Assembly (NCBI GenBank): GCA_944322755.1
Contig: CALUPY010000025.1
Location: 1 to 36,076 of the forward strand
Source: Candidatus Gastranaerophilales bacterium
Lineage (GTDB): Bacteria; Cyanobacteriota; Vampirovibrionia; Gastranaerophilales; Gastranaerophilaceae
DNA: 36,076 bases
Direction of reading: 5' to 3'
The first letter of the stretch is position 1. Each line of letters begins with the position of its first letter. The notes beneath the pieces were generated by a model. That model was given only the letters and a program-made list of their open reading frames with translations. It made no database searches and was not told the DNA's origin. A program made the translations under genes and the position numbers. Below, in pieces: positions 32,700 through 35,971 of the stretch.

Positions 32700-32943
32700 T
32701 ACACTCGGAGTATTCAAATTTTCCAACTTTAGTATGAAAAACTTCAAACTAAAGTTCAATTCACAATTCAGTCGTAATGGGTCATAATACAGACAAAGGG
32801 ATGAAGAGATATCTCTTGTCGTAATTGTAAGGTCTTTCGGACTGTAAAAGCTGTCTGATAAAGCTTCCAGCCCAAAAAGACAAATCGCAAATTGAAAAGT
32901 AAATAGAAAAAGCTAAAAGCTTCTATTTTACGACTTTAGCAAC
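32700..32943. other. Non-coding region with short palindromes
   Basis: No gene. Visible structure: AACTTTAGT with ACTAAAGTT at about 32730-32757, and the 14-base palindrome AAGAGATATCTCTT near 32805-32818. A more G/C-rich stretch (about 32775-32880) could belong to a leader or RNA, but I recognise no family. Confidence 0.35.
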
Positions 32944-33179
32944 CCGCCGACCTTTGCAAAGCGAGTTACAGAAAGTTAATTAAACAACGGTTAGTCTCAT
33001 CTGTTTGAGCAGCCTGTAGTTATTTTCTAGGTCTTTAATTTGTTTATGATTTTCGCGAAAATATGGGCTGCGAGTTATGAGACTCGGGTGCAATTTACTT
33101 TCTGTATGAGCGGAGCAGCAGGTCGGCAAGTTTCTTCGGCTCCACCCATTCTTTTTAAAAGAATGGGTGGAACAAAAAG
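32944..33179 (+). repeat. Structured repeat, copy A (upstream of flagellin)
   Basis: A 236-base element matching copy B at 35733-35971 in direct orientation. Its halves pair with each other: CCGACCT with AGGTCGG, TACAGAAAGT with ACTTTCTGTA, GTCTCAT with ATGAGAC, GCAGCC with GGGCTGC. A separate hairpin at the 3' end (CCACCCATTCTTTT / AAAAGAATGGGTGG) follows. The stem arms are conserved between copies while the central loop differs, as expected for an element kept for its RNA or DNA fold. An 85-codon minus frame crossing it is an artefact. Confidence 0.85.
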
Positions 33180-33297: not shown

Positions 33298-35409
33298 ATG
33301 ATAAGCATAAACTACAACCCGTCAGTATTAACGACGCAGCGAAATCTGAATATCGCAACAAATAACCTTAACACCGCACTCGAGAGAATGAGCACGGGGT
33401 ATAAGGTGAATTGTGCTGCAGATGATGCTGCAGGGTTGTTTGTTGCCTCAAACCTTAATGCAAACCTTCGCGGTTTAAAACAAGCCCAGAAAAACGCCCA
33501 AGACGGCATATCACTCCTAAACACAGCCGAAGGCTCACTTTCTAATATGACAAACATCCTAAATCGCCTGAGAGACCTTGCAGTCCAGGGCGCAAACGGT
33601 GTTTACGATTCAAAATCCCTCACCGCAATGCAGGATGAAGCAGATGCCTTAATCTCTCAATTAAAACAAATCCAGCAAAATACAAACTTCAATGGAAAAA
33701 GCATTTTTAATTCAAATGTAATGTCGAACCTGACCACCCAAAACGTAGGTACAGCAACCATCTCCGCCATGTCGGGGGGGGGGGGGTATACTGGCAATGT
33801 CAATAATACCAAGTCTTTAACGGGTGCTGCTACCGTCTCAACCCTTTCAACAGATACAGTTCCGCCTGGTTATACTCCTATATATACAGCACAGGATTTA
33901 GATAATATTCGTTATAATCTGGATGGTAAATATATATTAATGAACGATATTGACTTGTCTGGAATCAATTGGGATCCGATAGGTGATTATGAACCTTCAT
34001 CATCAGATGATTTCTCCTCTGGCTTTTCTGGAATTTTAGATGGTAATGGACATATTATAAAAAATCTGACAATAGATTATAACGCCAATAAAGGTAATAC
34101 TGAAGGATTGTTTGGACTTGTTTATATGGGGGAAATTAATAATTTGGGATTAGAACATATATCATTTTCCGGTGAATTTGAAGAAATAGATGAATACTAT
34201 GGCGAATTTGGTATGAACCTGATTGGTGGGTTAGTTGGTTGGAATGCCGGAGGTACTATATCTAATTGTTGCGTTCAAGGAAATATTTCTCTTTCTATGT
34301 CTCAAATTATATCTCAAGATGATACTACTTACAGATATTCGGAAGGGGTTGGTGGTTTAGCTGGGATAAATCAAGGGATAATTGAAAATTCGTATAGTTC
34401 TTGTAATATATCAGTGGAAGACATAAATCAAATTACTGATGATAGAGAAAATCTGATAGTATCAAATATTGGTGGACTTGCTGGACGTCAGAATGCGGGT
34501 ACATTGTCAAATTGTTATGCGACAGGTATTATAAATTTAAAAAATATTGTTGGTATCCTTGGAGGACTAGTTGGAGATAATGAAGTTGGGGAGATTGTTA
34601 ATTGTTATACGACAGTTTCAATTACAACAAATGGATTAGAACAAGACTATTACCTCTTAGGTGGTATACTTGGAACAGCTGATGGGTATGACGATACAAT
34701 TATTTCTAATTCATTTTTTGATAATGAAAAAACAGGTACTGACGAAATAATGACCGATATTAAGAACGAAATACTTACAAATAATAGTGGGCTTACAACA
34801 AAAGAAATGCAGAATGTTCTGCATTTTATTAATGCTGGATGGGATGCAGGTATTTGGGATTTTTCAACATCACCACCAACACTTAAAAATATGCCAAACA
34901 TTATAAATTCTAGTAATCCGAGTATACAACCTGGAGGTGATGGGACTGAGGGTACTGACCCTGATGACCCGAACACCCCAGGCGGAGGTACTGGCGGGGC
35001 TTGGGATGTGCCGATTCCGGGTGCAGTGCGGCTGCAAATCGGTTCGAATTCTCTCGCAACATCCGCAATCTATGTCGACACCTCCTTTGATTTAGGTACG
35101 TTCGATATCGACTTTTCGTCCGCTGACTCTTGCGCCGCTGCGATTGATGACATTGATGAGGTCTTGTCTCGCATAAACACAAAACGCTCAGAGTTCGGTG
35201 CTGCTATTAACCGTTTGAATTCTATTCTTGAATCACAAACAACAACAATTCAGAACTACACCGCAGCAAAATCAACTATAATGGATTCTGATATAGCAAC
35301 AGAGTCAGCAGACTATGTAAAAAATCAAATTCTGCAGCAAACCTCCTCCGCTCTCCTCGCCCAGTCTCAAAACCCCCATGCGTCGATAGTCCTGTCGCTG
35401 ATAGGGTAG
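33298..35409 (+). CDS. Flagellin with inserted GLUG-repeat domain and poly-G tract
   Basis: 703 residues, far longer than the usual 270-500. Residues 1 to about 155 are flagellin D0/D1 (INYNPSVLTTQRNLN, LERMSTGYKVNCAADDAAGL, LNRLRDLAVQGANG, the stretch that TLR5 recognises in other flagellins). About 597-703 are the C-terminal D1/D0 (KRSEFGAAINRLNSI, ending NPHASIVLSLIG). Between them lie a glycine run at 160-163 encoded by 13 consecutive G, an ordered strand-rich part (YTAQDLDNIRYNLDGKYILMNDIDLSG), and about five GLUG units (GGLVGWNAGGTISNC, GGLAGINQG, GGLAGRQNAGTLSNCYATG, GGLVGDNEVGEIVNCYTT, GGILGTADG). A proline/glycine linker leads back to D1. GLUG repeats are otherwise known from adhesins and secreted proteases. 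The insert is more AT-rich than the flagellin ends, suggesting a different origin. Confidence 0.93.
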   Translation: MISINYNPSVLTTQRNLNIATNNLNTALERMSTGYKVNCAADDAAGLFVASNLNANLRGLKQAQKNAQDGISLLNTAEGSLSNMTNILNRLRDLAVQGANGVYDSKSLTAMQDEADALISQLKQIQQNTNFNGKSIFNSNVMSNLTTQNVGTATISAMSGGGGYTGNVNNTKSLTGAATVSTLSTDTVPPGYTPIYTAQDLDNIRYNLDGKYILMNDIDLSGINWDPIGDYEPSSSDDFSSGFSGILDGNGHIIKNLTIDYNANKGNTEGLFGLVYMGEINNLGLEHISFSGEFEEIDEYYGEFGMNLIGGLVGWNAGGTISNCCVQGNISLSMSQIISQDDTTYRYSEGVGGLAGINQGIIENSYSSCNISVEDINQITDDRENLIVSNIGGLAGRQNAGTLSNCYATGIINLKNIVGILGGLVGDNEVGEIVNCYTTVSITTNGLEQDYYLLGGILGTADGYDDTIISNSFFDNEKTGTDEIMTDIKNEILTNNSGLTTKEMQNVLHFINAGWDAGIWDFSTSPPTLKNMPNIINSSNPSIQPGGDGTEGTDPDDPNTPGGGTGGAWDVPIPGAVRLQIGSNSLATSAIYVDTSFDLGTFDIDFSSADSCAAAIDDIDEVLSRINTKRSEFGAAINRLNSILESQTTTIQNYTAAKSTIMDSDIATESADYVKNQILQQTSSALLAQSQNPHASIVLSLIG
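33774..33786 (+). repeat. 13-base poly-G tract inside flagellin (phase-variation type)
   Basis: Thirteen G in a row at the junction between conserved flagellin and the insert. With 13 the frame is open; with 12 the next stop is TAA at 33818-33820, and with 14 it is TAA at 33804-33806. Long G runs in AT-rich genomes are typical slipped-strand contingency tracts. Confidence 0.9.
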
Positions 35410-35656: not shown

Positions 35657-35732
35657 TATAAAAACATACGACGTGACATGTAGTGATAATATTTATTATG
35701 TAAAAAACAAAAATTTAACGAGCGTAACACCC

Positions 35733-35971
35733 CCGCCGACCTTTGCATAGCGAATTACAGAAAGTTAATTAAACAACGGTTAGTCTCATCTGTTTGAGCA
35801 GCCCGTAATTATTTTCAATGATTTTGGATATTACCATAATTCATGCGGAAATATGGGCTGCGAGTTATGAGACTCGAGTGCAATTTACTTTCTGTATGAG
35901 CGGAGCAGCAGGTCGGCAAGTTTCTTGGGCTCCACCCGTTCTTTGCGCCAAAGAATGGGTGGAACAAAAAG
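35733..35971 (+). repeat. Structured repeat, copy B (downstream of flagellin)
   Basis: A 239-base direct copy of the element at 32944-33179. Stem arms are nearly identical; the central loop (about 35805-35850) is different. In the 3' hairpin, CCACCCGTTCTTTG pairs with CAAAGAATGGGTGG: the A-U pair of copy A is a G-U pair here and the loop has changed to GCGC-like, so pairing is kept despite sequence change. Confidence 0.85.

Follow-up and report, generated by a model that had tools for sequence, protein, structure and literature searches.

The long flagellin gene and its poly-G tract

The window, by which we mean the whole stretch of 36,076 nucleotides that was analyzed, carries a long flagellin gene of 703 amino acids whose reading frame stays open through a run of 13 G residues. 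The features of this gene and its flanks are as follows.

33298..35409, + strand: long flagellin gene, 703 aa, in its assembled ON frame (ORF; Pfam Flagellin_N, Glug, Flagellin_C)
33307..33714, + strand: conserved flagellin N-terminal domain (part of D0/D1), PF00669 over the cut-off; OFF forms would retain it
33718..33843, + strand: predicted disordered linker, residues 141-182, which contains the tract (AlphaFold2 pLDDT <50)
33774..33786, + strand: G13 tract, proposed site of switching by slippage; it encodes the Gly run of SGGGGY (codons 159-163)
33871..34857, + strand: variable insert, residues ~192-520, predicted beta-solenoid with a GLUG motif (Pfam, AlphaFold2, fold matches)
35143..35388, + strand: conserved flagellin C-terminal domain (PF00700), missing from OFF forms
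32935..33170, + strand: upstream copy of a ~230-bp genus-wide intergenic repeat
35732..35962, + strand: downstream direct copy of this repeat, 88% identical

The tract occupies nt 477-489 of the ORF, and both its position at the border of the N-terminal domain and the variable insert and its in-frame state were correctly described in the initial annotation, as was the GLUG insert. Pfam places Flagellin_N at residues 4-139, a single Glug match at 389-413 and Flagellin_C at 616-697, and the C-terminus (NPHASIVLSLIG) is intact. With PF00669 and PF00700 at opposite ends of the protein, both over cut-off, the gene product has the domain arrangement of a FliC-family flagellin.

The AlphaFold2 model (mean pLDDT 73.5, 23 sequences in the alignment) has flagellin helices at residues 8-128 and 609-689, a beta-rich solenoid at about 192-520 and a disordered linker at 141-182. 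Its Foldseek partners are flagellar filaments and the beta-helix part of the pneumococcal IgA1 protease (6xja/6xjb). A sequence search of the insert against the PDB gave no match, and the IgA1-protease beta-helix is seen by fold comparison only; this fold match agrees with the Peptidase_M26_N/GLUG matches of sister flagellins in Pfam. The linker is predicted to be a tolerant site for whole-codon changes, because three bases more or less would merely add or remove one Gly.

Changing the length of the run by a single base has a very different outcome on the simulated sequence, where it toggles between the full-length and a truncated product in the manner of a contingency locus. Runs of 12 and 14 G give products of 173 aa and 169 aa, with the stop 5-10 codons past the tract, while 11 and 15 G give 168 aa and 174 aa. 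The early stop predicted in the initial annotation is therefore upheld, and its estimate of 165-170 remaining residues was close.

The ~230-bp repeats on either side have inverted ends and 7-33 matches per genome, short partial ones included. We considered them as part of the switch and rejected them, since they belong to a genus-wide element most of whose copies lie away from flagellins. The window genome also encodes seven ordinary short flagellins of 285-332 aa, distant from every long run, together with FliD and an FlhA that passes the curated cut-off. FlhA-type export gate genes of full length lie at G000:C1:179459 and G000:C14:32857; one of the two scores above the FlhA cut-off and the other falls below it. 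A third, partial FlhA match occurs in the same genome, and a second export system is possible.

Long G/C runs are rare in the window genome

No other G or C run of at least 9 occurs in the window, and when the window was shuffled 100 times with its dinucleotides preserved, no shuffle reached as many 9-G matches. Codon shuffles of the gene produced a run of at least 13 in a fraction of only 5e-5. The tract is longer than chance would give and exceeds the 7-8 G/C expected of a contingency run in a reading frame or promoter. In 87.7 kb of the window genome sampled around the flagellin and tract loci, G/C runs measure 1-6 bases and then there are only three more, each exactly 13, with none of 7-12; these being draft assemblies, exact counts of 13 may be off by one. 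The whole genome (2.19 Mb, 43 contigs) holds five runs of at least 9, of which two are of 9 bases and in no evident gene. The three of 13 bases are all intragenic, in the window flagellin, a second long flagellin and an AlgX/DHHW-like gene.

A family of tract-bearing flagellins in the genus

The genus was sampled as four species with one assembly each (G000, the window genome, and G001, G002 and G003), and loci were found by a search with the window protein combined with a pattern search and then extracted. This yielded 19 long flagellins whose genes contain 7-13 consecutive G or C at nt 424-537, mostly at nt 476. The initial annotation had proposed comparing tract length at the same place in related genomes, and among these homologues it does differ; the picture of a single switch has to give way to that of a multigene family, with two tract flagellins each in G000, G001 and G002 and thirteen in G003. 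On the coding strand the tracts include both poly-G and poly-C, encoding poly-Gly or poly-Pro. The second long flagellin of the window genome (G000:C12:57899), for instance, has C13 on its coding strand and is OFF at 172 aa.

Seven of the 19 genes are in frame (one cut by a contig end) and 12 are out of frame, a proportion compatible with the one third ON expected if tracts drift freely among the three frames (p=0.81). Exactly one of +1 or -1 rescues each of the 12 OFF genes, nine then reaching the normal stop and three running off the contig, and no further lesions were found in these 12 flagellins. Both states thus exist among homologues whose OFF copies are otherwise unlesioned, as is characteristic of contingency loci. 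The near copies within G003, alike at 94-95 of 100 nt after the tract, illustrate this: those with 11 G are ON (C21 and C4c, and C4a up to its contig end) and those with 12 G are OFF (C16b and C2a), with no net length change across the group in the 476 nt upstream of the tract.

Among the flagellins of the genus, tracts are confined to long ones, being present in 19 of 21 long and none of the 8 short genes checked (p=1e-5). For comparison, 141 flagellins from other bacteria (29 at least 500 aa long) were examined; runs of 7-8 occur in three of these, and no run exceeds 8. A search of viral contigs returned three flagellins, all distant.

We also considered the tract as a junction at which whole N- and C-modules are swapped. 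Distances of the N- and C-regions correlate over all pairs (Spearman 0.89), which leaves free reassortment of modules unsupported; insert types beside near-identical N-regions do differ. GLUG-type repeats like those of the flagellin inserts are found as well in giant open frames of 11061 aa (G000:C5), 6214 aa (G000:C2), 8905 aa (G002:C1) and 7277 aa (G003:C6), and the G000:C2 frame has a weak FliD_N match.

Selection acts on out-of-frame genes

After the tract, each OFF gene continues in a single open frame of 432-1474 codons, whereas the two alternative frames are interrupted by 20-134 stops; the OFF genes that are complete on their contig finish with a normal flagellin C-terminus. Over the last 110 codons of the G003 genes, mean dN/dS is 0.09 for OFF-OFF pairs and 0.10 for both ON-ON and mixed pairs; the paralogues do not form independent pairs, and part of their similarity may stem from gene conversion, against which stand mean dS values of 0.64-0.86 (0.64 for OFF-OFF pairs) that indicate well diverged paralogues. 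The N-region of the G003 flagellins has dN/dS of 0.06-0.07. The second long flagellin of the window genome and its G002 relative, both OFF, give dN/dS of 0.18 before and 0.19 after the tract, values that are rough owing to high dS. Strong purifying selection on parts that are currently untranslated implies that the OFF DNA is not permanently untranslated, and judged by this selection the OFF flagellins are living genes.

Tracts in genes other than flagellins

An AlgX/DHHW-like gene of the SGNH acetyltransferase type carries a tract at about codon 101 in three species and is OFF in all three. The tract is at the same place in each, two of the species having poly-G there and the third poly-C.

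G000:C1:162739-162751 (L009, L099): G13, OFF at 106 aa; 583-584 aa with 11 or 14 G
G001:C12:6823 (L089): C10, OFF
G003:C2:121135 (L110): G12, OFF

Between species, the 482 post-tract codons have dN/dS of 0.09-0.17, and both halves of the gene are under purifying selection.

In addition, an Acyl_transf_3 gene has G11 at its extreme C-terminal end in two species (G001:C9:41395, L088; G003:C14:25934, L114). Here each frame encodes a different short tail, much like the C-terminal switching of Helicobacter canadensis.

Poly-G upstream of long flagellins in other genera

Of 78 genomes sampled from the family, 33 (19 genera) contain flagellin N-domains. None of the examined long flagellins outside the window's genus has an in-gene tract. 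Instead, G9-G13 lies upstream in 9 of the 21 long flagellins examined from other genera versus 0 of 27 short ones (p=1.8e-4), eight times at -74 to -112 and once at -263 within a block of similar type. The poly-G is directly followed by a TATAAT-like box, e.g. ttttacctttcGGGGGGGGGGGtataat (example loci: L294, L295, L297, L299, L290, L291 and L286). In one genome, G061, all three runs of at least 9 in the whole genome sit just upstream of long flagellins. With a promoter assigned by eye from the sequence, the upstream tract would probably be a transcriptional switch that alters promoter spacing. The occurrence of two tract routes within one family suggests repeated selection for switching long flagellins.

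Runs of at least 10 G are abundant in many family genomes (G043, G012, G025, G017, G076 and others), reaching 124 per 2 Mb. The majority of those in G025 and G060 occur in a common context (..cacGGGGGGGGGGcacaggc.tagtctcctttt..) close to the starts of ORFs, which sets them apart from the flagellin tracts (L235-L247). Several tracts at L249 (G078:C6) read ctcGGGGGGGGGGtaaaagtggtataat, with poly-G about 8 bases before a TATAAT box at several loci.

Discussion

The tract in the window flagellin is very probably a contingency locus, at which replication slippage would switch a long flagellin that is one of a family with independent tracts. This reading, drawn from comparison of genomes, agrees with the proposal in the initial annotation of a phase-variable poly-G inside the flagellin structural gene, which is now well supported by 19 tract genes in four species, by the presence of ON and OFF states, and by selection on the OFF parts. 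Slippage at the G13 would gain or lose a G, such that 13 G is ON and 12 or 14 G is OFF, and it would be frequent and reversible. The OFF product would be an N-terminal D0/D1 stub that presumably fails to polymerize.

Long homopolymer runs can slip in transcription too. Slippage in RNA or frameshifting could therefore yield a fixed mixture of full-length and truncated flagellin and would account for selection on the OFF parts without any switching of DNA. Such a mechanism needs no variation in tract length, yet the lengths span 7-13, and it leaves the poly-G upstream of a -10-like box in other genera unexplained. We regard it as improbable as the sole explanation, although RNA slippage may act in addition to DNA switching.

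Another concern is that the tract lengths reflect mistakes of assembly or sequencing, every gene being in reality in frame with a shorter run of fixed length. Homopolymers of 13 bases are hard to count in draft assemblies, and two-colour chemistry is known to generate spurious poly-G. Errors would have to recur, however, at one site of a single class of genes in all four assemblies and again in the AlgX-like gene of three species, appear as poly-C as well as poly-G on the coding strand, fall within flanks of unique coding sequence, and leave the sampled part of the window genome free of any run of 7-12. The chance that this is the case seems very small to us.

We give equally little weight to the idea that the OFF genes are pseudogenes, fixed in a broken state as a flagellin expansion decays. 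The 12 out-of-frame genes among 19 and the AlgX-like gene that is OFF in all three species would fit such decay, but a second lesion is seen in none of the 12, the C-termini of OFF-OFF pairs retain dN/dS of 0.09 at a mean dS of 0.64, and the AlgX-like gene is likewise constrained after its tract (0.09-0.17) despite being OFF in all. That the two parts of OFF genes function as separate proteins, as conservation of both parts might imply, is hardly credible, given that ON forms join the same parts and that neither a conserved start codon nor a ribosome site was noticed downstream of the tract.

With DNA slippage as the preferred mechanism, the question becomes what the switch would change. Because flagellins without a tract are present, the switch probably alters the decoration of the filament and not its presence, and an OFF event would drop one decorated subunit; the short tractless flagellins, together with FlhA and FliD, indicate that a basic filament probably persists. 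The initial annotation had suggested that a TLR5-visible filament is turned on and off, which in those words is less likely. Melainabacterial flagellins were earlier predicted to have a TLR5 motif (PMC3787301), and the stub would still hold the segment with this motif, which weakens a simple reading as TLR5 evasion.

Long flagellins may enter the filament and alter its surface with respect to adhesion, antigenicity or phage binding. If the tract of every long flagellin drifts independently, each cell would display a random subset of decorated flagellins, beside short flagellins that stay constant. On balance we favor a combinatorial display in gut Gastranaerophilales that may comprise up to 13 independently slipping beta-solenoid flagellin genes per genome plus the constant short flagellins, with an in-gene route in the window's genus, a promoter-spacer route in at least four other genera and possibly a phase-variable AlgX-like gene for surface-sugar acetylation. 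Were such switching true, the flagellar surface of a gut commensal would differ from one cell to the next, which would be relevant to its interactions with mucosal antibody, TLR5 and phages. It would also mean that annotation of a single assembly labels many such genes as truncated or broken though they are merely OFF.

Gastranaerophilales are gut Vampirovibrionia, largely uncultured commensals that form a non-photosynthetic sister group of cyanobacteria. In the literature searched, which covered few subscription journals, we found neither a published flagellin structural gene switched by slippage nor phase variation or homopolymer switching in Gastranaerophilales/Melainabacteria. Homopolymer switching is best known from pathogens (Campylobacter, Helicobacter, Neisseria), where the targets in the reports consulted are enzymes, regulators, receptors or adhesins.

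The closest parallel is found in Campylobacter jejuni and its relatives, which likewise have G/C runs of 7-15 within the frames of mostly surface-structure genes (maf1, cj1295, cj0170 and capsule/LOS genes), and in which the flagellum is a main target of poly-G/C switching, as here (PMC6321876, PMC8355987). The proportion of genes that are ON in draft Campylobacter genomes is also near that of neutral drift (PMC6321876), much like our own. Campylobacter, however, switches flagellin-modifying enzymes or regulators, whereas the gene described here is a flagellin structural gene, in many copies and in a different phylum (PMC8355987, PMC6321876); it is not an orthologue of the maf, cj1295, flhA, fliP or flaG switch genes, although it would work similarly. 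A homopolymer frameshift also makes flagellin expression phase variable in Campylobacter coli, where the poly-T lies in the export gene flhA and the whole flagellum is affected instead of a single flagellin (cited in PMC2831843). Helicobacter canadensis has poly-G in coding sequences and promoters, with one flagellar gene affected and a spread of tract lengths visible in reads, but its flaG stays full length with only the C-terminal tail changing, and no flagellin is switched, the word itself being absent from that paper (PMC2823697). A random choice of flagellin, as proposed here, is made by the Hin/FljB-FliC system of Salmonella, which uses inversion of promoter DNA to select between two alternatives (PMC9368917) and not independent slippage at many genes. 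The present system would stand apart in that what is switched is the flagellum's own filament protein, encoded in many copies, and in that the host belongs to a commensal gut lineage neighboring the Cyanobacteria.
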